64,000 bases of DNA from Apostichopus japonicus (taxonomy: Eukaryota; Echinodermata; Holothuroidea; Aspidochirotida; Stichopodidae), in assembly GCF_037975245.1 (NCBI RefSeq), contig NC_092563.1:14806001-14870000 (forward strand), in the 5' to 3' direction. The first letter of the stretch is position 1. Each line of letters begins with the position of its first letter. Below are positions 13,702 through 64,000 of the stretch, one piece after another. The notes under the pieces were generated by a model. It searched no databases. It was given only the letters and a program-made list of their open reading frames with translations, and was not told the DNA's origin. A program made the translations under genes and the position numbers.

Positions 13702-17267
<3,566 letters not shown>

Positions 17268-19746: not shown

Positions 19747-20018
<272 letters not shown>

Positions 20019-34300: not shown

Positions 34301-37300
34301 CCATGAGAACTTCTACATGGGAGTCACATTCAACCAACACATACAGTAGCTACACACCTTATTTGTAAAGTTTTTGATCCCCCTACAGCCAGACCATAAA
34401 GGTTCCTGCCCAAACCAAAATCTGTTGTGGGGTAATGGGAGACATTTTTTTTTATTTTGGTACCTTGTTATTCTTACAACAGTTAGTATCCAGAAGAAGC
34501 ACTGTACAGCAGTACTGGAAGAGGCAAACAAACACAGATACACAATTATCATATTCATAAACCAGATAGAACCATTTTTGTATGCTGTGGAATTTATTGC
34601 AATTCTTTCTTACCTGTCTTCTCCATAACAAATGCACCATCTCATGTCAGAAGCCCAGCACAAGGGGCACATGCCTACCCAGTTTTGTGAAAAACCCCAA
34701 GGGTACCCATTCATACTAAAGAAGGTGCCCTTGTTTTAGAAAACATTCAAATACTGCAGTTTGTGGGATGGAATGCACAGAGGATTAATTAGGTTAGAAA
34801 GTTTAAAGGTAACTTTGCTTCCTGAAATCAAGGTCTCATGTCCCACTGCCCATCGAGGACAATACACCTTCCCTGTTCCCCCTCCCCCCCCCTCCCCATT
34901 GAACCACTTCTGCTGCCTCTGCATACCATCAAAAGTCACTGGAAATAACAAATTCAATGTCTCTGATAACATTTAGAAGAAACATATGTGTATTTTAACT
35001 TCTGTACCATTTGTTAGTTCCAGTATCATTCTTTAACATTATTAAAGTACAAAACAAATTTACTTTCAGGATGTAGTGTTTGCGTGTGGCTGTTCAGAGG
35101 CTCTTGAAATGGCGATCCTCGTGATGGCTAATCCCGGGCAGAATGTTCTTATACCTAAGCCAGGTTTCTCTCTGTATTGGACCATCTGTACAGCGTACAA
35201 CGTTGATACAAAGTATTACCGACTATTGGTAAGTATACCCATGTGTGCATATTCTTCTGGATATAATGGGGGAGGGGGGTGGGTTGGTGGAGAAGGGAAG
35301 GGGTAGTGCAGTTCAATTTGCCACAAAGGTTCAACAAACATTACACCTGATAAGCCTGATATAACTCTTTCAAGCTTGCTAATATATCATTGAATTTACA
35401 AGATATATTGTCTGTGATTTTTGTATTCCATTGGTACAATTTTCAAGGCAAAAACATTGTCAATTGCATGAAGCTATCCTGGACTATGGACTCGGTGTTA
35501 TAAAGAATAACTCAATCAATCTTGGTATGCACACTCCAAAAACTGGAAACGGAGTTTGTGACGTCTGGAAGAAATTGACGCTCCCTGCCGAAAAATTGTT
35601 TCCAACCCACTTTTATGATCTGGCTCCATAACTTGCAGACTGTCGTTTTAAAGTATATCAATCAAGTGACCAAACTTGTTGCAAGGCTTGTTTAGTCACT
35701 GTGTGAAGAGTAGGACACTGAGAAGGCTGCAGCATACTGCATCCAAGCTGCATAGGACATGCTGTATGTATGTGCGGTGTAGTGTCACATGATGTATGTA
35801 TGTGTATATGTATGTATGTATATTAGATCCTCCTGCAAGCAGGAACTCGGGAAGAAGCCTCATTTGCTTATCAAAGCCCCAAGCTGACCGAAGTCACTCT
35901 TATTTAACGTCCATGATTATGAATTGTTAATTGTCAACAACTCTGTAACTGGACGACATACATTAATCTGGGAGTGACTCGAACCGGGGATGGGCACTGC
36001 TGAGATATTATCTTTATTGTGTGATCTTGATTCAGCCTTGATTGGTTTATTTCCCTTATTACAGCCTGAGAGATCTTGGGAGGTAGATTTGGAACATCTG
36101 GAATCGTTGATTGATGAAAACACCAACTCTATCGTAATAACCAACCCCTCCAATCCATGTGGATCTGTATACTCGAAGGAACATTTACTAGATATTTGTG
36201 AAGGTAAGCAGCAATGAAATGAGGATTTATCAGAATCTGTATCTTCAAAGGAACAAAGAATTTATATTTGTGATGGTAGACAAAAGTGAAATGAGAATCC
36301 ATACAGATTGGTGTAAAGTTAGGAAAGTATACTAGAAATGGGTTTTTTTAATGGTGAAAAGTAGTGAAATAATTGATACTTGAAGTAGCAAGAAGTAATG
36401 AAGTGTGGATCCATGCATATCTGTATGATCTGATCAACGCATGGCATATGTTTGTAGTATTAAGCAATAATGGAATGAAGGATCCAAGCGGATCTGTTCA
36501 GAGAAGTCAACCCATGCTTGAGATTAGTTGTGGTGAGGAGTTAATGGAATGAAGGATCCAAGGGGATCTGTTCAGAGAAGTCAACCCATGCTTGAGATTA
36601 GTTGTGGTGAGGAGTAATGGAATGAGGATCCAACTGGATCTGTATCATCAAATCAGGAAATACTTCATATTTTGTTTGTGAATGTTACCACTTTGTAACC
36701 AGGGTGCTGTGATTGGTCGGTTTTAGACTCCATCTGTCAGACATTGTCTTTCAGCTCTGTTCAAATTATACCGTTATAACAGGAAAATAAAAGCATCAAG
36801 ACTTGTATATTATACAATTGGATTTTGTCTGTGAAAAAGCATGAAAATGTTCATATCTCGATGCCTTTGACAAATGTAAACTCAACGTGATTATCGTATT
36901 GGGCGATACATCATCAAATCAAGTCGATGCTTTTCAAATTGTATTAAAAACAGAGTGAATTTGCAGAGTAAGATGTTATTCATGCTACCTTTAAATATAT
37001 AACTGACATGTTCAAAGGTTATATGTCCTTTGCTATGCTTTACTGCCTTAAACCATAGGCAAATAGACTCGATGCTGTATGGTATTCGACAAATAGAGTG
37101 AATGTGTAGGTCTGAACATGTGCATAATGAAGTACAGTTAGATATTCAGCCTAGGCGTTCCTACCCAGGTAATCGATGTATCAAATTTGATAATAAAGGC
37201 AGCATGTACTGTAATTAATTAGAAAGTACTGGTTTATAAATATGGTTTCAGGATAACACTGGTATAAAAGTATTTAAACATAATTAAACCTGTAATATTT

Positions 37301-49146: not shown

Positions 49147-49919
49147 TTAAAATAACCTCTCACATGGAAAGTGAAAAAGCGAAACGGCACAGTTTATTAT
49201 GAGCATATCTAAAATGGTGTTTACGTTACACGCCGAAAATTGAATTAAAAGTTCCGGCAAAACCACAGAGTTACGTGAGTTAAGAAAATGATATTGGTGA
49301 ACCTGGTCGTGAAACAATATTGCATATAAAATGTTATAAACTGTACCCCGGGTGATCATAGGTTAGTCACATCCGTTAAGAGGGGAAGCTGTAGAACTGC
49401 TTGACCCCTTACTGAGTTCAGCTATTATACTAGTAACTCCTTTCCGCTTCAACAATAGCTTTTGCTGCGAACAATCACACGAGATCTAGCTATTCACTTC
49501 AACTAAACTTACAGATTCGTACGGCGAAGCAAAATAACAATTGTATAACGGTTCACTGCATGTGAATATATAGTATTAGACACTTTTCGTGGTCCCTCAG
49601 TGTGTGTCATAATCTCATTCAATAGTCCAAAGCTTAGTAAACGTTTTCGCATTGACAATAGGCATGATACATCATTCTCAACTGCTGGAAAGATATGGGT
49701 GAAGTTTTCTTTACTTTGAAAATTATTCTTCGACCAAACTTTCCTCCGGTTTGACCGTGGCCTCCCTCAGGCTGGTATGTGTGACGTTATAACAGTCGAA
49801 TGTTGAAACATGTTTTTACCTCCATGGTTGAAATAACCCTTTGGGACGTTTGAAGAGGTTACCTTACAACCTTGATTAATTTCTGTGTGACCGTATCGCG
49901 TACCATAGACCGAATCGAA

Positions 49920-50015
49920 ATGGATTACTTACACATTCGATACACAAAGTTACAACCAGAAGGTACTGCTACATGTAATCAAAATGGCAAGTACTCAAAA
50001 AAATCAAGTTCGTAA
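49920..50015 (+). other. Upstream ORF overlapping the FITM start
   Basis: An ATG at 49920 (G at -3, G at +4) opens a 31-codon frame that ends TAA at 50013, 29 bases past the FITM ATG and in another frame. If the transcript begins upstream of 49920, it would suppress initiation at 49984. An in-frame FITM ATG at 50038 (codon 19) follows the uORF stop by 22 bases. Confidence 0.5.
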
Positions 50016-50955
50016 CCGAAGAACCGGTCGTAAAGTAATGGCCGAAGACAATACTGCATTAACTCGAGGAAACGAAGGAAGGAAGTTTCTCGACAAACGC
50101 CGTCTTTTGAATACGTACGTGGTTATCATATTGTTGGTACTCGTCGTTTTGGTTGGTTCGGCTATTCGTGCTCTGTCATTAATACCTGCGAACGTAGTAC
50201 CAGATTCGCGAAATGTTTGGAACCAAGTGTTCAACAAGTGGGCATGGCTGTGGACACTTGTCGTTACTACACCAAACTGCATTATGGAATGTTTTATCCG
50301 GTCATCCAGAAGAATTCAGTACCTTTTTCTAAGCATCATTCGTGTTTACGTTTTAGGTACAGCAACATGGTCATTTTGGACGAATTTCATCATGCCAAAA
50401 GTTCAGTATGCAACATCAGAGTTTACGACAAACACTACAGACGGCCAGCCAGAAGCAATTGACGGTACCGGATTTGATATTTCTGGACATGCCTTCCTAC
50501 TCCTTTTGAGTTTCTTAATTATACAAGAAGAAGTTGCAATATTAGTTCTCAGACATTTCTATAGGGTGAAACACGGTTTCCCATTTTTAGAGTTGAATCG
50601 GCAGCCAATTGAAGCACCTAGTCAAGGAAATCAATCAGATGCATCTACTGCCACCCGTAACGGAATCGACCTTGCGGAAGATGAGCAACAGACAAGTACT
50701 ATAATGTCGTCTGGATACTTTAACCTTAGTTATGTAATCCTGTATACGTTGGTTATCATCTTTGCTGGTTTTATACAATTACTGTGGGTCGTAATGGTTT
50801 TTCAAACTAGCATATTTTTTCATACATTTCTAGAGACTATCTCCGGAAGTCTAATAGCTTTCACAATGTGGTTTATTATCTATAAATGTTTACATCCGTT
50901 GGTGCTGAATATCATATCAAGAATAAGAAAGGAAGATATGAATGATTTGATGTGA
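49984..50955 (+). CDS. FITM2: FITM (fat storage-inducing transmembrane) protein, single exon
   Basis: A 323-aa frame with an in-frame TAG upstream at 49906 and a good start context. The family is an ER multi-pass enzyme (FIT1/FIT2) that hydrolyses acyl-CoA and supports lipid-droplet budding and ER shape. The two catalytic-histidine motifs are present: FDISGHAFLL (H169) and TSIFFHTF (H280). Other family marks are RNVWNQVFNKWAWLWT near residue 77, GTATW near 125, and six or so hydrophobic segments (about 44-65, 84-99, 113-133, 168-188, 248-274, 286-303). The N-terminal 40 residues are basic and unconserved, and a Gln/Ser-rich loop spans 208-240. It is longer than human FITM2 (262 aa), mainly through this loop and the N-terminus. 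No intron interrupts it. FITM1 versus FITM2 cannot be settled; invertebrates usually have a FIT2-type gene. Confidence 0.9.
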   Translation: MASTQKNQVRNRRTGRKVMAEDNTALTRGNEGRKFLDKRRLLNTYVVIILLVLVVLVGSAIRALSLIPANVVPDSRNVWNQVFNKWAWLWTLVVTTPNCIMECFIRSSRRIQYLFLSIIRVYVLGTATWSFWTNFIMPKVQYATSEFTTNTTDGQPEAIDGTGFDISGHAFLLLLSFLIIQEEVAILVLRHFYRVKHGFPFLELNRQPIEAPSQGNQSDASTATRNGIDLAEDEQQTSTIMSSGYFNLSYVILYTLVIIFAGFIQLLWVVMVFQTSIFFHTFLETISGSLIAFTMWFIIYKCLHPLVLNIISRIRKEDMNDLM

Positions 50956-51942
50956 AAGTAGTCAATACCCTGAAAAATAATTCCTTTAGCATTTAAGAGA
51001 AATACTATACCAAGCAGCTCTATCCTTCAGTGTAAATTGTGAACATGCATTAATTTGGAATGCACCACGTTGCAAGCCTTACATATCGTAGGGCTATTAT
51101 TGTTATATTTGTCAACCAGTGACCTGCTACTGTACTTGATTTAATCACAGTAAATTTTCTTGAAGATACAAGTGAAGAGCAAGATTATAGTTGTAAAGAT
51201 GATTGGCAAATACATATTGAATTATTTATTTTGTTCAAAGAAAAGCAAATTAAGTTGATTTAAATATAAAAAATTGAGTGAAAGTTTTATATATATATAT
51301 ATTGTTTTATCAGATTTTATGAACAGAACTACCTTTTAAGTTTAACTGTCAAAAATAGTTACTGTACTTATTGTCCTGCTAATTTTCAACTCAACATTCA
51401 CTACATTAACAACCAGTAGTATAGTCTAATTACGACCCACTGCGTTCAGTTCGAAAATATATATGCAAACCTTGTACATTTTAGCAATGCTTGCATTTCA
51501 CTACTGAAATTATTTTATCGTCTTATTCCATGTATTGTACCTTGACCACAAGATTTATGACTCAAGAAAACAGTTTCAAGGAACTGTACATTTGCAACAT
51601 TTTGTGAAGTGTTTCTCACTAGAATAGGTCTAAGTACTATGTACTGTACATGGGTACATCTTTGACAAATGTTTGTATCAATTGACAAGTGACTTACTAC
51701 TTTCTCAGAATATGTAGCCTAACATTTGTTTTAACATTAACAATGTCATTAAAAATTTACCACAAGTAGTTGTGCTTAAAGGTAGTCAGTATAGGCCCCA
51801 AATTATAGCATGCTATAATTGCTATAATTTTTCAAAAAGTTCTTTCCTGGAGGTCTTTACACACCAAATTGTTCTCAGACATTTTTAAGGAACACACAAG
51901 ATGACTGAATGTCCCAGTGAGGAAAAGTTCCTCAAAGGCTGT

Positions 51943-51948
51943 AATAAA
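51943..51948 (+). terminator. Polyadenylation signal candidate for FITM
   Basis: AATAAA 988 bp after the stop codon. No nearer canonical signal was seen. Confidence 0.35.
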
Positions 51949-52415
51949 AACAGTCCAAGAATTTGACCAAAGGTGACCATATTTGAATATCTAGCATACT
52001 TGGGGCCAATACAGCATACCTTTAAGCTTTTGTTATTCCTGTCTGCAGTATTGTCTTCATGTACTACAGTACATACCAGGACCACCACACCTATTTTTCT
52101 TTAATGAATTACCTCTAAGTGGCTTTAGTACCTTGTTGAAGTAAAAGTTGTTGGTCAAACTAAATAAGTATTGTCCATAGTTCTGAATTTGTCTTTGTTG
52201 CAGTACTCTACAAACTTTTATCAGACAGCCAACTGAACATTCATTTGCAAATGTTGTGAAGTGTGCAGGACAGTATATAAATGTTGCAATGTAGGGACTT
52301 TACACAGTCATTGAGAGAGTAGGGAATACTTCACCCAGAAAGTACCTCACTGAATCAGTTGTCCAGATCGTAGAAAACAAATACCACAAGGACCACAATG
52401 ATCTTCCTTTTTGTC

Positions 52416-52925
52416 TAAATTTTGCTTTAGTAATATTTGCTTTTCTTTTCTTCATCTTCAGCTAAGTATAGTAGGTGTTCTTTCATATTTACTGTTTCAA
52501 ATTTGGTTTGAACTTATTTCATAATAAAACACAGCCAGATGGCTATGATAGAGCAAAACAAAACAAAAACAGATTGTCTGTAATAATACACAGTTGAGTC
52601 GACTAATTTCTATTTTTAATGCAGTACCATTACCAAAAGTATGAATGATTGCCGATGTTTTATATGAGTCTTTGAACTGGTTCATATCTGTTGCATTACA
52701 GTATTGTCTAAATTTGGCTTTTGTAATATTTGCTCTTCTTTTCTTTCTTCTTGATCTTCAACTAAGTATAATAGGTGTTCTTTCATATTTACTGTTTCAA
52801 ATTTGATTTGAACTTATTTCATTATAAAAAAACAGCCAGATGGCTATTGATAGAGCAAAAGAAAAAAAAAACAGATTTGATATGAGCCTTTGAACTGGTT
52901 TATATCTGTTGCATTAGTGTATTCT
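52416..52925 (+). repeat. Tandem duplication, about 290-bp period
   Basis: TCTAAATTTTGCTTTAGTAA at 52416 and TCTAAATTTGGCTTTTGTAA at 52708 start two copies. Both contain GGTGTTCTTTCATATTTACT, ACAGCCAGATGGCTAT and CTTTGAACTGGTT.ATATCTG. Copies are about 90 percent alike with an indel. Confidence 0.85.
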
Positions 52926-55799
52926 GCCATATTCTTTCAACAGAATTTCACATATTTGTCAATGTGGGTATGAATGACATTTACCTTTGTCAAGTGTAAA
53001 GAAAATGTCTAAAACATTACATTGTGCATTGATCCTGTCATTAATGTTATATGTGAGTGTGTCAAGTGCTACAGTATGTTTATGAGGGTTCTTTTTTATC
53101 ACCTTTGTCCACCATAATGCCATGTTTATTTCCTGACTGCTGGGGTTTTCTTGAAAGGATATTGTAGTAGTAAATTAGGGAAAAGAAATATTAATTGAAT
53201 TTTATATGCCATTGAACATTTTATGTAAACATATGCAGGGTTTGAACTTGAAATATGCTGTGCAATGTGATAGTATTGGTGCTTCTTGTATTTTATGCCT
53301 GGTGGGAGGGCAAGGATGATGAGGGGGGTGGGAAGTGTTGCGGGGAGGTGGGTGGTTTCCAGAATGGGTGGTGAAAGTGATGCCTCATCATGATAGTAGA
53401 TTCCTTGCATAAGTCTGGAGCACGACCCAAAAGTGGGCTAAAAGAATTTTTCTGTGCCACGCTAGATTTTTGCAGATATTAAAACTTTATCCAGATAGTT
53501 TTAAGGCTTGTCGACAGAGATCGATTTAGAAATACTTTTAGCATCAAGTATAGTACATAGTAGAAGCTATGTAGCTTTCATGCATGTGAGCATTGTTTTT
53601 GAGGGGTTGGGGGATGGGGGGTTGGTGGGTCATGGCTCAGTCCTCATGAAACTGGGTCATGGGTTTCAGACACCTGGTTTAGAGAGAACTAAGCTCTGTA
53701 CATATGATTTATACTTTTGATGTGAAGAATTATCATTTGGAATTGAGTTCTATGGAACCAGCTCGAGGAGTATCAACCAATTAAAAGAAGATAAAACTTG
53801 CTAATTACCATTTTGACAACAATGACGTATTGTCATTATGTTTCATATTTTGTTTTTGAATACAATTAGCAATGCAAAGTGTAATACTATATCTGTAACA
53901 ATTTCATGGGGTTACATAGAATGAGGAATGATTAATTGGTGGATTGCTTTGTTGTAATTATAGAGATATATTGGGACACTGATTACTTTGAAATAATATA
54001 TACCATGTTTTTGTTTGTCTTTTGAATTGAATCTTATATTAATATAGTACGCAAAATCACAAATACTGATCAAGACTTTGTCCCTTTCTCTCTCTCTATG
54101 AGTGCTCTTTAAATTTCCCAACAGAAATCAAGATTTAAACTCCCTTTATCACATCATTACGATGCTGTTCTGTGGCTCCATAATGTTTGATTTCACATTT
54201 AGGCCTACCATAGTGGAGCAGCCAGTGGGACTGAGGGGAGAACAAACCCTGCCCGGGAAATTTTCGGATATGAAACGGGGATCGGCAAATGTGGCAAAAT
54301 ACAAAACAAACTTTAAAATCCTTTAAATAAGTGATATTTTATACTCAATAGTATACTTGCTGCCGCATAGCAGGATGTGATCTGTTTCTCCTTATTTGAT
54401 GCATGGTTGTAAACTGGTGATGGCGCCGACATTATCAGCTTGGAGTGAGTTTCGTAAGCTTTATTCATGCACTCTCATAGAAATTGTTATGTGCACTCTC
54501 CAGTTTAGGTTGTTAGAGTACTTTTGAGGAAGGGGGGGGGGAGGGACATTCACTGACGTGGTTGAACCCCTTCCCACAACGATCGAACGAAGTTAAACTT
54601 GGAGTTGAAAATTAAATTCTGAGGGCATCGCTCAATAACAATTCTCAACCTAAGGGTATTGTTTACACTGAAGAACGCAAATTCAAGTTTCTTGACGAAA
54701 ATTGAAAAAGGGTTAGTCCTATACGTGTATTTATGAAAGTTAGGTTTCTTTTCACAAAAATACAACGGTCCCGTCGGCCCTACCCAAAATGTTAAAACGA
54801 CCCTGTCAAAATGTTAAAATCGAGTTAATAACGATGATTGTTGCTATCGGTTTATCTGATAATTCACCGTTTTTTTCCTAATTTTTAAACATTTGGCTTG
54901 CCATAAATTTTCCGAACGTGTGTACAGCACAGAATTAATTTCTGGATTCAGCTGGTGGTTTCAGCTGATCTCTCTCATTTGACCTTGCTTAGCTGTATAC
55001 TACTACTACTATATATAGTTATTACAGCTAGCTGTCTTCGAAAAAGTGCCCATAAATAAAGCAATGTAGTATAGTGCATGCCCGCTGCATGTCTATGCGT
55101 TGATAATTTCCCAGAAGAAAGCAATTGGTCATTCAGATGGACTTGAGCATTTTGTGTTAGTGATCCTGTATTGGTGCTGGTCAGTGTTTTCCTGCATAAT
55201 GTAAGAAACCATAGCCTAAAGTTACCATTCAAAACAGAAACATAGGCCTAGGCTACCTTAACTTAGACTAGGCTGTTGTACTGCAGTGTAACTTACTGTA
55301 CACTGTTAGTGTGACCTAGTCTGTACCGAGAGAAGGCCTTCAGTAGGCTAAAGTTAGTGTACACAGTACAGAAGGTTCCATGGATATAATTGTAAATTTT
55401 TAACAAACACCAGGTGTCTGTGGGCCAGTTCACTAGTTAAGCTTTCAACACATGATAGAAACTTAAGTAGCCTGGATGGCAAACTACATTTCTTGAACTG
55501 TGAAAGTTGGATTAATCATATTTCACAGATTAGTTACCTAGGCTAGGCTAATAATACTTAGAACAGGGACCAGGTGAGATTGATAAGTAATAGGCCAATA
55601 CAGTTACACTTACAGAATATAGGAAAAATAGGCTTAAATTCATGATAGTCAGAGCTGTACATTTTGACGTAGCATAAGCTAGGCCTACAAGATTTGACAA
55701 CATTAAGATTAAAGCTTACTGTAGCCTCGGGGCTAAGTAAAGTACAAAGTTCACTAGCCCTTGCAGGAATCGCATCTACAGCCTATATAGTCAAAACTT

Positions 55800-56667
55800 C
55801 ATAATTGACGTACCCCCGTAATTGACGCACCTTCAATTTTTACTAGCAACAATACAGCAGGCCACCTAAACTTTTTGCAGTCAAGCAGAATGACATATTT
55901 CATGAGTTTGAATCCATTTCAGCTTTTTGCTGACTAAATTGTGGTATTGTTTAACAAAGTGGCTATTCTTACGACTGTTCGTAAGAATAATTTCTGATTA
56001 CGCATGCGCAGTTGCTATTTTTATGACAGTAGTACTATTTTTCACGACCAGGAGTAACAATAATTTCCGGTTAGGGTTAGTGTTAGTGTTAGGATTGGGG
56101 TTTAGGGTTAAAGTTAGGGTTAGGGTCACCCTTACTACATGCGCAGTTGCTTTATTTACTTTACTGCGTTTGAATTCGCCTTTGTCGTAAGAATAGTTTA
56201 TAAATAATTGTTACGACTAGTCGTAAGAATAGCCACGGCCATTGTTCAAGCTTTTAACACCCTCCACCCAGTTTTACACGTTTTTTAGGCATTTGGAAAT
56301 CTTAAATCCTAAAAATAACCAACATTACCTCAATATGATAACACTATTCTCTGGGACCTGACCTGTCTGAGGCTCAGGGCACATAGCAAGCAGCATCTAA
56401 AGTCAATGGATGTATACTAAGGCCTACACTAAAGTTAGCTTATCGACGAATGTGTCAATTTAGGGAATTGACATTGAAATTGACACGGCAGACATTTTGT
56501 GGTCAAATTCTGCTCAATTGTACGGTGCATAAGCACAGAACCTTAAATATTTTGAGATCATAACATTTCTGAGGAATTACACATATGAAAAACACATACA
56601 GTTGAGTGATTTGGATTTTTTCCTTGATAGAAATCGTTGATCAAATCCTTAAGTGCGTCAATTATGA
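55800..56667. mobile_element. Possible TIR element ending in ATAATTGACG
   Basis: CATAATTGACG and AATTGACGCACCTT on the left face AAGTGCGTCAATTATGA on the right. No target duplication was identified. It encloses the MITE at 55959. Confidence 0.4.
55959..56236. mobile_element. MITE carrying telomere-like TTAGGG repeats
   Basis: The ends GTGGCTATTCTTACGAC and GTCGTAAGAATAGCCAC are perfect 17-bp inverted repeats. The interior at about 56070-56128 has GGTTAGGGTTAGTGTTAG and GGGTTAGGGTCACC, a degenerate (TTAGGG)n. CGCATGCGCAGTTGCT and ATGCGCAGTTGCT flank it. Confidence 0.8.
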
Positions 56668-56878
56668 GCCCACCATGCTACAGTATGTACTGTATAGTAT
56701 GCTACTCTCCTCATTTTGGTGTACCATTGACTACAAATGTTGTAACATGTACTGTATGTTAACAGCTGCTGCTTAAAATTGTTTCTTGATCCACTGTTTC
56801 TTCGCCAGCGTTGGCATTACAGCCTTGCCTTGAGTACGGTAGTCACAGCATAAGCAACGTTTCTGAAGTACCCCCAAA

Positions 56879-59800
56879 ATGGCATTTGTGCAAGAATTCA
56901 AGGACCACAGAGATAGGTAAGCAAGATAAACTCTGAATAGTTGGGCACTACCCCTCCCTCCAGCCTCCACCCCACCCCATCCCATCCCACCGTTACTAGT
57001 TATTTAACTGTTAATATTATTGCCAAATAATGAACACTGTGAGTATTGCCAGAGGCCCTCTTCATTAGGTGAGTTACAGCAGCTTCTGTTGATATGCGAC
57101 TCAGTCGTGGAATGCTGTCAGATTTGTGATGAGTTTCTAAACCTTGGTCTTCAAAAGTCAATTTTGATGCCACCTTTCACAGACCTTAAGTTAATAACGG
57201 TTTCTAAATTGGGTTGAACTGCACATTTTTGCACAGTGATATTTCTTGTAGTACTCTATTTATCATCCATTGCATGTTCAAGAAATTATGAACCACTTGT
57301 AATCTGATCCTCTAGAAAATCTAGTCTTTCAGTTTCTTCTTTTCAAAATTTACTGAATAAAAGATCTCTGTTGTTACTTTATTTGCGTGAACTTTGTTAT
57401 TCAAGACCTGTACAAGAAAATAGACAAGTTTACACATCTGAACATGTAGGTAAAATTTAATGCTTCATATCTTTTGATCGATTCCAAGATTTAGGGATCT
57501 CTCCAAAGGGAGATCATTATTGCACAGGGATGGGAATTTTTCCAGGTGAGAGGGGAGGGGAAGTTGGTTTGGTGTATGGTTTCATTAGTTGGCATAATTT
57601 TTCTTCATGACAGTAATTTTTTTTTTTTTTTGCTTTTGAGGTGTTTTTGGTCTGTTACGGTTGAATTAATTTGTGACCTTCATTTAATTCTTGACAGGTT
57701 TTCACTCTTAATGTTAGACCCTGGTGAGATTTACTTTGAAGATTTCAGTGTTAATCTAATACCAACTGATGTATCACCACCAGAAACTGAGGAAAGGTAA
57801 AGGAATTGATTATTAAACTATTATAGTATGGAATTTAGTGAATTAGCTAGGTTACAGTGCAATTCCAATATTTCAGTGTTAACCTAATACCAACTGATGT
57901 ATCACCACCAGAAACTGAGGAAAGGTAAAGAAACTAATAATTAAACTATTAAAGTATGGAATTAAGTGAATTAGCTAGTTTACAGTGCAATTCCAATATT
58001 TCTGTAATGGATGTGGATCATAAGATCAGATCCAAAGTCCAGTAAACAATAAGACAAAGATTGATGTGTATTGCAGCACAGACATACCAAAGTAGATTTG
58101 CAAGTAAGATGATATCCCTTTGTAAATAAGATGGTATCCCTTTGTAAATAAGATGGTATTGTTTTCTGTAACTGAGACACAGATTTATAGTCATATGCCT
58201 CACAGTACAAGTGGATGTGGAGGCTATTCCACATGACATCAGTTTGATTTAGTACAGTGCTCCAAGGTACTTCAGGGGTTAATGGAGGCAGCGATGTACA
58301 GAACATATCATTCCCTCTCATCTTCGCGCACCCATGTGGCCCAGGCAGTAAAAGACACCATTATTCCGTAAATTTTGAGCTACAGTATGTTGGTAACCCT
58401 GTTGGTATCATTACCTGTTCATATATACAAAATAATTTTGCTACTGTATATACAGCACCCCTTTGATTGAACTCTTGCTACACCACTCATTATAGTATTT
58501 ATGTAGCAACTTCTTACCTAAAGGTAAATCTGTTCCAGAGGGGCAGGGATGCTGGGAGGGAGGGGATTTCATTGACAGTTACATTGTTAATTCAAGGTTG
58601 CAACCTGTGACTATAGTGTATCTCTTAACTAGCATAAATTTACAACAAAGAATTCCAAAAGCCACTTTGCAACATATCTAGATAATATTTATTGTGGATC
58701 TTTTTACTTTTGTTGGTTTGCCAGAGGGGTGCAAAAGTTGCAAAATTAATACAAGTACAGAATTCACTTCAGCTGCAGCTTGGGGACAACTTATCTACAG
58801 TGACATCACAAACTGCTATATAAATGCACAAATTGCCATGCAACAGCATTTGTTGTACACGGAACTGATGCATTTTCATTGTCTTATTAAGTTATTACAA
58901 AATTCGTATATCTCAGAAAGTTCTGCTAATCAAAGTGTTAACATGACAGTTTTGTCCCTCCTGCTTTTGCAATGTTGGTTTAGCTTGCCTAGTCTCATAA
59001 TAAAAAATAAAAACAAACGACAGACAGAAAGGAAGAAGTAACGAAAAATGCATAAAATTGTGACTAGTTTGCAGAGAGTATATCATGGACCTGAAATTGT
59101 AAATTTTTCAACTTTGTTCAACAGGAAGTCAAGAGGCAGGTTAAAAGTTTGCTCCAAGAGTTTAGTTTTTGATCCTCAAGATACTTCCCAACCACTCATA
59201 AAGGTGAGAAAAGAAATGACCTTAGTCTGTTCATTGACATTTACATTATATATATGAGAGAATCATGAGTCATGCACATCGTGTGATGTGATATTTGCAA
59301 ACATTGAACACTGAAGTTGCCTTCACAGCTCTTCAACTGTTGAGTTTAGATTTTTCAAGGACCTTCATAAAAGTAGTTGAAATTTCTATGCTAGTGTTTA
59401 ACTAAAACATGGAGCTTTTATATGTGTTGCAGGTTTTCAACTAGTTGTGTGATAGACTGGATACATATTCAACATTAACTGAAACTAGTTGTATGATAGG
59501 CTTGATGCATATTCAACACTAACTGAAACAAGTTGGGTGATAGGCTTGATACATATTCAACATTAACTAAAATCCACATTCTTCTGTGATCCATCTTCCT
59601 ACTCCTCGGTTTTGCTAATTAATTCCTTGTGTGTGTAATTCCTGACCTTCAAGGATAAAAATAAAATCCAATTTTTACAGTGTTATGTTCTCAAAACATT
59701 ATGATTACAGGAATGTAGCGATGTAGTAAAGGGATTATTTCACATTCTCTGCTGATGTGTAGTATGAGAAAAAGCTACAGATCAGGTATTCTCCTGAGTG

Positions 59801-62800
59801 TAATGTAGTGAAACACAAAATATGCTATGCTATAGCGGGGCTTCTCAAGTGGCTGCAATCTGGCCTGCAAAAGATATATTGAATTTGCACTCATCTGTAA
59901 TGCAGGCCCTAAAGGCATACTGTATTTATGTAATAGGCTAGAACACCCTACTGTCCTAACCTGCAGTCCTGCACATTGCACAATGTAGGTAAAGTAAAAT
60001 TTTGGTTCTCTCTGCCCTTTGCTCCAACCAGTGTTTCTGTCTGGTCCAGGTTAGTAAGTTAATGGAGAACCCATTCCTTAGAGGTACTGTATGCATTGTA
60101 TTACCTAAACATGGTGCCTTTGCATGGCTGCCGTACAAAGTCAGTGAAACGTGCTGTATGTTTTTTTAAGCTGTCTGTCATTGAGGAATTGGATAATTTT
60201 CAATCAGCAATCTCAAGAAAGTTAAGTTTGTTTCATTTCCTCGTAGTTTCCCTTTCAACGATGTGACAAGATCATCGAACATGAACAAGCCCTCATTGCC
60301 AGGTAAGCTGTAGAGAAATGAAAGAAACTTATACAAGACCTTATTCATCAACTGACAATCAAAACAATTAAGAAGAATTGGAGAATGTATGAAGAAAGAA
60401 AAGATCTGCTTGAAATAGCAATTGTAACTAATCTTATTTTAAAAACAAGGAAATATAAAAAAAAGTTGAAGAGACTAACAAATGCTGTTCTTGCAGTAAA
60501 ATGTAATGAAATGAAAGGAAGTAGTGATTGGATAGCTTAATATGTCAAACTAATTTAAAACTGTCCTGTTAATTCCAAAGATTCGTTGAGCCTTGCCTTT
60601 GTTTATCTGTCACATTGAATAATCGGTCCATAAACTCAATGTAGCATCATCCCCCCCTTCTCAATTCTCCCCCCCCCCCATTTTTTATCCCTTTCTGAAG
60701 GCTAAAGGGATCTGTGTTTTCATTATTGGTTGGAGGTCAAAGGTCATTTTAGGTCCTGGTGGAGGAAATGTCACTATAGCTTGTAAACAAGCTCACCCAA
60801 CAGCTAACATTTGGTGAATCTGATAGATGGGTCATAGTTGCTCCTCCAACATATGTCTTTTTAGTAGAACTTTAATGGAGGTCAAAAGCATTATATGAGG
60901 TCATCAGGGGCAGAAACCAAGAAAAACCCTTGTAAACATGATAACTCTAGCTTTGATCAATATCATACTTGCAATGTGGGTGCCTCTGTTATTGGTGGAT
61001 GTCAAAGGTTATTCGTGGTCAGTGGTTGTCAAATGTTGAAAACCTTTTTAAGCCTACAAATGCAGTGGATAAAAGCTGAAACACATTTCAACAGGCTATA
61101 TCAGGTGGTTAAAATTTGATGAATCTTACACACTTGGTGTGTACTGCAGATGTTAAGAAATAGTAATACTGCCTCTTTGATGTTCCCGAAAAACTCCATC
61201 GAGACACCGTACAGGCCCCTTATATATTTATCTAGGTCGACGATTCAGTTTTCCCACGAGAAGTTTTAACTATCTTATTGAATCATGTCACAGGGCCTTT
61301 TCTAAAAATAGATTCGATGTGTCTGTAGAACATTCGAGAAGGTTCTTCTCACGTGGTATAGAAGTTTCCATAAAAAATACTGCATCAAGATAACCCCAGT
61401 ACATCTCTCTCACGAGTCCCGATATAATATTACATGTCGGAGGAGCCGGGCTTGTCATAATACTACACTAACTGAACTCTGCTGTTGGTAAATTCCTTTA
61501 ATTGGACAGATATTGGTCAGCTTCAGTGTTTTATAAAGCTATATGTAGTGCTGTATTAAAGGTCTGACATATCATCTTGAGGAGTATATATTCCAATATA
61601 GTTAAACCATGAATTCTGTTTTATAATATTGCACAAACCTACAGTATCGGTATCATAGAATAGATGCTCTCATAGCAGGGGACTTTAACACACCTAGTCC
61701 TTTTCGATGCCTCAGTTTGAAGTGGAAAGGTGAAAGGTTATCTTTGGCAATCTCTAGTCTGAGACATTTGTCAGTGATTGCCCATTTAATCAAACGTTTT
61801 ATGGGAAAGTGGCGATCTAACTAAACAGCACACTTAGCAAGATGAAAAGTTAGATGTTATTATGTACAATGGCTCTCTACAGATCTGTGTACATGGAAAG
61901 CCCATGATCTTTACAGCGTCACATAGATTCGTCTTCATAGATTCGTAAATTAGCTGTTACTTGCCAATGAACTAAACTAGTCAGAGGTAATGTTATAACG
62001 ATACTCCTATGGCTGAAACTGATCGTGGGACAAAATTCTCCAAACTGAAGATAATGTTCACAACTAAGCAAACATTCCAAATTTATCACATTACAAGAAC
62101 AACTTAAGATCGATATTAGAATAGGATAGTTAAAGCTCTTGAAAACATCTGCCCGGTTCTTTCCTGTTCTGTAAACAATCCCCATTATGCTTTTCCTTAC
62201 CAGTAGATTTATGGATATGAAAATAGACAAAGGAAAGCAGATAATATTAATTATCTCTGATTTTTTTTCTCTGTTCTTTCTTTCTCTTTGGCAGGCAGAC
62301 CACCAACGCTATCGCAATACATTGCAAACAGATCGTCGAAATGAAAGCCGATAATATGATCAGCCCTTTCAAGTTTAAACAGGTTTGTTTGTTTATTTTA
62401 GCCAACTTTTTTTTTGTGCATTACAAGGATTAAATGCTTAAAGTAGTACGCATAATTATGTGCTTCAAAATAGACATGAAGCACTCCCATAGAATATGCA
62501 ATAAGAGGTCTAGACATTAGTCATGTGTTTGTGTGTGTGTCTGCTGTCACATGTCGTTACTCATAAATACTGTATAAACAATATGATGGTATTATGGGGC
62601 GCCGTTATGGCAACAAGTTATATACATAACACATACCACGAGGCTTCAATGAAAGTATTTGCCGTGCAAATGCAGTCTTTCTGATCAAATTCGGTTTTTC
62701 GTGAAAGAGCAAAGAAATTGCAGACTAGATTGGGATTTGAACCAGCGAACGTAGGACTGCATGACTAGCTCCGGGTACAAGTGGTGTAGTGGTCCTCTTG

Positions 62801-63842
62801 CCGTAAGTACCAGAATGGGTACAAAGCTCTTGTCTGGCTAAAGTTTGAGTACTAATCTTGTTCTAGTAATATATTAGATTTCCAAAAATGAGTACAAATC
62901 CACAAGGTGGAGTACAAGCACAGCTATGAGTACCAGTACAAACTTGCTTCAAGTCTCCCTCAAGCATACAGTTCCTGTCCTCTGATGATCGCCAAGTAAC
63001 CATCTCACTGATTTGTTTACATTTATTGCCGGTCATTTTTCAGCTGTAAATATTGACGTTAAATTTTTTTTATTTGGCTTGCAGAACAGGACAAATTTTA
63101 TATTTGAGCTGAACTACTGTAAGTCAGAAGATTTTCTTGCCACCGCCTGCCAGCTTCTTCGAGCCTCAACCTTGCCTACACTCGATCATGATTCAATGGT
63201 ACGGTCCTTCTCCTTCTTTTTCATGTTTAGTCCAAAAGTTTGAAATGAGTGGAGTATTTAAAAGATGAACGTGGCGAAGATTTAGTACCAAGCTGTCAGG
63301 GTGAATAACGCTCGAATTGGCTTCCGATTTGTAGCTGATTAGCCAAAAAAATGTGCAAATGTAACATTAAGGGGTTCTTTTGCTCTGAAGAAAATTGAAT
63401 TCACATGTTTGAGAAATAGTAAAACATTTGCTTTTAAGCTGTACATCTCTGATATCTCTGTAATTATGAAAGTTCTCATTTGTTTTTACAAAACTTTGAA
63501 TGAACATACAGTATCTCACAGGTCCCATGTTGGAATTGAACACACACAAACAAATTACAGTAGGATGCTTAAATTATTGTCCTCTTTTGTTTGTCAAAAG
63601 TAACTTGACCTATAAACTACCCTTTAAAATTTGATCTTTTAATTTGTATTTTGCAGATAGCAGCTATAGTGTTTTCCAGACAGAACAGAGTGCCGTTTGA
63701 CACAAGCCGTCTGGACAACTTGTTTGAGAAAATCGTCTTGGAAACCACGGCTGAGAGAATCATGCCGTTGGTGGTGAATCCCGGTCGCATTCTGTTAACC
63801 TCAGATAGGCTGTATTTTCAACCATTTAACAATGTAGAAAAC
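56879..63842 (+). CDS. NSMAF: NSMAF/FAN N-terminal part, seven exons, gene continues right
   Basis: Coding exons: 56879-56916, 57698-57796, 59125-59203, 60247-60302, 62295-62382, 63085-63198 and 63657-63842. They total 660 nt (220 codons), all GT-AG and in phase. FAN is the adaptor that links the TNF receptor to neutral sphingomyelinase. The start MAFVQEF and the blocks RFSLLMLDPGEIYFED, GRLKVCSKSLVFDP, TSQPLIK and NRTNFIFELNY match the N-terminus of the vertebrate protein. ERIMPLVVNPG and LTSDRLYFQPFNNVEN match its GRAM/PH-like domain start. The vertebrate protein is about 917 aa; the BEACH domain and WD40 repeats must lie beyond the window. The frame after 63842 runs into an intron (donor GTAAGT). 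Exon 2 is followed by a partial tandem copy of itself, listed separately. No promoter was identified. Confidence 0.93.
57743..58000 (+). repeat. 128-bp tandem duplication creating a second copy of the NSMAF exon 2 end
   Basis: Copy 1 starts inside exon 2 at TTTCAGTG (57743) and runs through the donor into the intron. Copy 2 starts at 57871 and ends near 57997. Identity is about 94 percent by eye. In copy 2 the TTTCAG serves as an acceptor-like site and GTAAAG as donor, giving a potential 48-nt exon at 57877-57924 (16 codons, phase-neutral) that repeats VNLIPTDVSPPETEE. Confidence 0.9.
58105..58160 (+). repeat. 22-bp tandem repeat
   Basis: About 2.5 copies of CCCTTTGTAAATAAGATGGT plus AT, in NSMAF intron 2. 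Confidence 0.8.
59439..59571 (+). repeat. 44-bp minisatellite, three copies
   Basis: Three units of the form ACTAGTTGTATGATAGGCTT, then GATACATATTCAACATTAAC, TGAA. A few differences separate units. In NSMAF intron 3. Confidence 0.9.
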
Positions 63843-64000
63843 GTAAGTTTGACATTTAAGTATTATGTCAAATTCTTACTGCGAATAAACACCATTGATG
63901 ATGTCACCCGAGATAAGGTTACAAGACTAATCAATACATTTTCATATTTTCATTTTCATATTGTTATACTCAATTTATGTTTGACATCATAGATCCAACA

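Follow-up and report, generated by a model that had tools for sequence, protein, structure and literature searches.

A 128-nt unit is present in two head-to-tail copies inside the gene NSMAF of the sea cucumber Apostichopus japonicus, and the copies, which differ by 8 substitutions and no indels, cross the boundary between exon 2 and intron 2. The second copy holds a potential 48-nt mini-exon that would keep the reading frame, preceded by a weak acceptor. The most likely reading, with an estimated probability of about 0.6, is that this copy is a proto-exon that is mostly skipped during splicing, and hence probably an ordinary remnant of duplication. Positions are those of the 64,000-nt stretch of DNA that was analysed (the window), and all features of the gene are on the + strand.

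The NSMAF gene model

The host gene is NSMAF, which encodes FAN, as identified from a Pfam match to PH_FAN and from BEACH and WD40 homology detected by tblastn only. PH_FAN is matched by the open frame holding exon 2 (8.5e-9) and, with 186.8 bits, by the spliced exons 2–7, a score that bears out the gene identity proposed in an earlier note on this DNA. Exons 2–7 measure 99, 79, 56, 88, 114, and 186 nt; the intervening introns are 1,328, 1,043, 1,992, 702, and 458 nt long. Exon 2 (57698..57796, +; 99 nt, phase 2-2) was placed by its PH_FAN match and by protein continuity with exon 3 (59125..59203, +), which begins with GAAGTCAAG, reads RKSRGRLK in translation, and was itself placed by protein continuity and the PH_FAN match of the spliced exons. 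The coding part of exon 1 (MAFVQEFKDHRD plus AG at the donor border; 56879..56916, +) is one of three candidates from a scan for phase-2 segments of the form ATG...AG/GT and is absent from the earlier note. Its addition raised the score from 186.8 to 195.3 bits and filled profile positions 1-160.

A tblastn search of window positions 50001-64000 plus 50 kb downstream, with human FAN as the probe, returned 18 rows at E ≤ 1. Fifteen of these follow the order of the gene as far as residue 890, with one row spuriously extended upstream; the other three are out of place. The downstream rows show that the gene continues past the end of the window. No PDB chain matched exons 2–7 at E 0.1, and the predicted insert was therefore positioned by the profile alone. 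A literature search found no paper naming both ‘sea cucumber’ and ‘NSMAF’. Elsewhere in the window, a 348-aa open frame at 49909-50952 (+) matches FIT, the fat storage-inducing transmembrane protein, with 70.3 bits, and a 200-aa open frame at 13881-14480 (+) gives a BEN-domain match of 22.1 bits, just below the Pfam cut-off of 23.2.

The tandem duplication and its breakpoints

The 128-bp tandem duplication described in the earlier note was recovered by two methods. A repeat search paired 57739-57866 with 57867-57994 at 93% identity, and TRF reported a period of 128 over 57742-58002, with 93% matches, no indels, and a score of 466. A match 128 nt long is far beyond chance. In the left flank, 8 of 30 positions match in the same register, and on the right side TRF stops at 58002. 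The word ATTTC (+ strand) marks the left breakpoint with its occurrence at 57742-57746, the junction between the copies with that at 57870-57874, and the right breakpoint with that at 57998-58002. On account of these three occurrences, the unit is best placed as copy 1 at 57742..57869 (+) and copy 2 at 57870..57997 (+). The overlap between the copies at the junction is 5 nt only, and the recurrence of ATTTC at both breakpoints and the junction is the pattern expected of duplication between two short matching words.

Placed in this way, copy 1 takes in 55 nt from the end of exon 2 and a total of 73 intronic nt, including the native donor GTAAAG. The unit is therefore composed as the earlier note had it, of the last part of exon 2, the donor, and adjoining intron, with its count of 54 exonic bases corrected to 55 when the shared ATTTC is included. 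The duplicated segment has one place in the assembly (671,581,487 bases in 35 contigs; best-scoring candidates examined), and neither a second gene copy nor a second haplotype of the locus was found among the best-scoring candidates of the assembly search.

The candidate mini-exon and its splice signals

Copy 2 can be read as a potential mini-exon of 48 nt (57877..57924, +; phase 2-2, GC 39.6%), open throughout, preceded by a potential new intron of 80 nt (57797..57876, +; GTAAAG...TTTCAG, GC 27.5%) and followed by the copied donor (57925..57930, +). Pairing the GT at 57797 with the AG at 57876 removes 80 nt and leaves an in-frame product. Inclusion is predicted to add 16 residues, SVNLIPTDVSPPETEE, in frame and inside the PH_FAN domain, so that ETEE at the end of exon 2 is followed by the insert and then by RKSRGRLK. 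With the insert, PH_FAN is still matched end to end at 179.9 bits, a cost of 6.9 of 186.8 bits. Retention of the 80 nt would make TAA the first new codon, a stop directly after exon 2. The copy sequence and its translation thus agree with two proposals made earlier, that an exonic TTTCAG had been moved into an intronic context and that the frame would be kept with a gain of 16 residues. A genome search with the insert-bearing spliced protein detected no mRNA retrocopy among its best-scoring candidates, the 7 matches at E ≤ 1 being the locus itself.

Splice sites were scored with generic matrices that are not trained on echinoderms. The donor AAG/gtaaag of the copy is identical to the native exon-2 donor and scores 7.32 bits, at the 98th percentile of 3,944 GTs in the window; its hexamer and both splice dinucleotides of the copy are intact. 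It had been called good, which suits its rank and its identity with the native site, with the reservation that the native donor itself is without G at +5.

The acceptor, gtgcaattccaatatttcag/T, is weak. With the generic matrix it scores 1.46 bits and stands at the 73.7th percentile of the 3,542 AGs in the window; with four matrix variants it ranks between the 59th and 86th percentiles. At its original position in the exon, the same TTTCAG scores 1.24 bits, hardly less. The acceptors of exons 2–7 (n = 6) range from 7.6 to 15.4 bits, and all six exceed the mini-exon acceptor in all five matrix versions. Among 18 assigned native NSMAF acceptors (6 assigned by protein continuity, 2 by eye, and 10 as the best-scoring AG near the start of homology, a choice that is perhaps flattering), one is lower (-0.9) and the next stands at 2.9, which puts the mini-exon acceptor close to the bottom of the native scores. 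One native NSMAF acceptor, at L003:2103 (G000:C3:14882103), appears to be aaatgttaaag/T, in which position -3 is A and the pyrimidine tract lies far off; it is unusually weak for this gene.

No perfect yTnAy branch word occurs 14-45 nt upstream of 57877, the best placed word being GTTAC, with 4 of 5 positions. A perfect word is also absent from two of six native introns (those before exons 3 and 4), and for this reason its absence was dropped as evidence against use. The AGs within the new intron (57803, 57827, 57839, 57847, 57851, and 57858) all score under that of 57877. The AG at 57912 scores slightly higher (1.71 bits) but was rejected as an acceptor, leaving 13 nt out of frame. Across the window, 14 acceptor–donor pairs on the + strand and 6 on the - strand pass the same thresholds at a spacing of 30-200 nt with an open phase-2 frame, counts that take in the mini-exon unit and any real exons, and the signals alone therefore fail to single out the mini-exon.

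Divergence between the copies

The copies differ at 1 of 55 exonic and 7 of 73 intronic positions, a contrast that is not significant (Fisher p = 0.14). The sole exonic difference, T57755C (AAT/AAC), is synonymous, and no amino acid is changed. Under a neutral model in which copy 2 is free and copy 1 changes at synonymous sites only, the probability that at most one of the eight differences is exonic is 0.22, and that of no amino-acid change in copy 2 is 0.14. In neutral simulations the frame and splice dinucleotides stayed intact in approximately 76% of cases, with the peptide also unchanged in approximately 15%. Two candidate signs of function were rejected on these grounds: the suggestive exonic–intronic contrast as a mark of selection, given the Fisher value and the neutral chance of 0.22, and the intact frame and splice sites, for which 76% is expected under neutrality. 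Weak constraint on the copy is possible. The assertion that a mini-exon had been born found no support, with no significant selective signal and no retrocopy among the best-scoring candidates, and the exon-gain interpretation is plausible but unproven. Tandem duplication as a route to intron or exon gain is already published, in the cases treated in PMC3443670. Intronic divergence is approximately 4.8% per copy, which would date the duplication to roughly 5 to 50 million years ago at assumed rates of 1e-9 to 1e-8 substitutions per site per year.

Frequency of similar duplications

TRF returned 115 rows for 20 loci of 10 kb each, which were not drawn at random but taken at the same 5-Mb position on contigs C1-C20. 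Seven rows, in 5 of the 20 loci (three in a single locus), are similar to the NSMAF duplication, defined by a period of at least 50, no more than 3 copies, and matches of 85% or above. Extrapolation suggests about one similar tandem duplication per 30 kb, or about 23,000 genome-wide. Values given for A. japonicus are 19,828 genes, with exons averaging 194 nt, introns 1,286 nt, and transcripts 7,737 nt (PMC10344927). This gene count and these lengths imply an estimated 100,000 or so donors; chance alone, with selection left aside, would place such a unit over a few hundred of them. The window contains a second short tandem duplication (36468-36671; period 74, 2.4-2.8 copies, 87-95% matches) and a TCATCG hexanucleotide array of approximately 46 copies (19747-20017) that lies within open frames on both strands. 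A separate 31,219-bp contig of the assembly (G000:C29) carries COX1 pieces at two places approximately 15 kb apart and resembles a mitochondrial concatemer or copy, beside a 16,099-bp contig (C35). On C35 the COX1 frame is open with mitochondrial tables 5 and 9 but closed with table 2, and table 9, the code of echinoderms and flatworms, yields asparagine at the places expected in COX1.

Fate of the copy and alternative explanations

Two ATTTC words may have given rise to the duplication through slippage or template switching, which would make it a microhomology-associated tandem duplication. These words would have been 128 bp apart before the event, provided that one unit lay between the words now seen at the left and right breakpoints. 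The copied stretch would have been the second half of exon 2 with its donor and the first part of intron 2, and the new acceptor at 57876 would have formed where intronic AATTCCAAT was joined to exonic ATTTCAG. Because this acceptor is weak, the native donor at 57797 would still be joined mainly to exon 3 at 59125, leaving the copy as a proto-exon or pseudo-exon in intron 2. The effects of leaky splicing would be mild, with inclusion adding 16 in-frame residues and retention of the 80 nt leading to a stop and a likely target of nonsense-mediated decay, and the duplication could therefore drift. A later, stronger acceptor could convert the copy into a real cassette exon.

This reading is favoured by the duplication with its microhomology, the frame and predicted products, the weak acceptor, the absence of significant constraint, and the commonness of similar duplications. 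The unchanged peptide, the intact dinucleotides and donor hexamer, and the one native acceptor that is weaker still (-0.9) argue the other way, as does the transcription of the mini-exon acceptor approximately 1.2 kb ahead of that of exon 3. The copy also carries GAGGAA, a hexamer listed as a putative exonic enhancer (PMC4974935). The estimate for the skipped proto-exon was lowered from 0.62 to 0.60, and that for a working cassette exon raised slightly, because the branch-word argument had been dropped and because the primate-specific exons with an average inclusion below 10% come from a set without tandem duplications (PMC2592719). In the proto-exon as proposed, every source of the would-be exon and intron is still readable, before a strong acceptor has evolved. 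If low inclusion is true, the locus would be a natural test of the minimal strength at which an acceptor recruited from an exon can create a new exon; if inclusion is absent, the copy is an ordinary silent duplication.

Second in likelihood, and tentative, is a copy that already works as an alternative cassette exon in at least 10% of NSMAF transcripts, perhaps in a tissue-specific manner. Splicing from 57796 to 57877 and from 57924 to 59125 would then yield a FAN isoform in which 16 residues of PH_FAN occur twice. The symmetric phase, open frame, native-type donor, unchanged peptide, step in GC content from intron to exon, and small cost to the profile are all consistent with such use, but the acceptor is weak, the constraint is not significant, and a 48-nt exon behind an 80-nt intron departs from the 458-1,992 nt of NSMAF introns 2-6 and from the mean intron length of 1,286 nt given for this genome (PMC10344927). 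Precedents exist in the mirror-image duplication of potato, described as spliced (PMC4974935), and in the latent sites of duplicates, described as often used (PMC3443670). A bolder version, in which the copy is a recently born and translated alternative exon, the mirror of the potato RdRp case, with an exonic CAG made into a working acceptor by a single duplication and a doubled FAN segment under purifying selection, is doubtful.

Constitutive inclusion in nearly all NSMAF mRNAs is unlikely. It would draw on the same signals as a cassette exon, and the nearest acceptor may win co-transcriptionally, but the exon-3 acceptor is far stronger (9.15 vs. 1.46 bits) and splicing of exon 2 straight to exon 3 yields the mRNA that the unduplicated gene is expected to have made. 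Heterozygosity can be very high in marine invertebrates, and the 8 of 128 positions that differ between the copies might reflect two diverged haplotypes set in tandem by the assembly. Such an artefact is very unlikely given the 5-nt junction overlap, the single place of the segment in the assembly, and the length of the tandem: at 256 bp it is far shorter than one HiFi read, and reads with a mean of 14.7 kb, assembled with Hifiasm in the published A. japonicus assembly that the present one resembles, would span it (PMC10344927). Hardly to be expected, finally, is recursive splicing through a zero-length exon, from the donor at 57797 to the AG of the copied AG/GT at 57924/57925, which would remove exactly 128 nt and regenerate the donor, the result that the AGGT duplication model terms ‘precise’; AAAG/GTAAAG is present in both copies, but the acceptor score at 57924 (-4.07 bits, 29th percentile of window AGs) led to its rejection.

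Comparison with known systems

Tandem exon duplication gives rise to cassette or mutually exclusive exons. The NSMAF copy, here read as a mostly skipped proto-exon, likewise involves coding sequence beside its duplicate, with symmetric phases, but only 55 of the 99 exonic nt were copied and the parental acceptor was left out, which sets it apart from a whole-exon duplication. It also departs from the strict Rogers AGGT model, in that its AGGT already marks an exon–intron border and a 48-nt gain would change the protein. Closer is ‘imprecise’ intron gain, the form of many known tandem-duplication cases, in which latent splice sites in the duplicate add coding nucleotides (PMC3443670). As in those cases, the duplication is intragenic and tandem, with latent sites in the copy that would add coding nucleotides; unlike them, splicing in NSMAF is predicted only, and the unit covers an existing donor rather than exonic sequence alone (PMC3443670).

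In Drosophila, weak novel introns are argued to be sheltered by nonsense-mediated decay, with phase-2 GT(A/G)A donors that read through to a stop (PMC2809761). By its sequence, the NSMAF copy would share this combination, with weak new sites, a phase-2 GTAA donor, and an immediate read-through TAA (PMC2809761).

The nearest counterpart is the potato RdRp gene PGSC0003DMG402000361, whose splicing is backed by 106 junction reads and by outgroups, while the NSMAF copy is known from the genome assembly (PMC4974935). In both genes the duplication crosses one exon–intron boundary, so that one splice site was inherited and the other recruited from the exon, and the copies have diverged to a similar extent, with ten nucleotide differences in potato and eight in NSMAF (PMC4974935). 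The two are mirror images: the potato gene inherited its acceptor and recruited an exonic donor, whereas NSMAF inherited its donor and would take its acceptor from the exon (PMC4974935).
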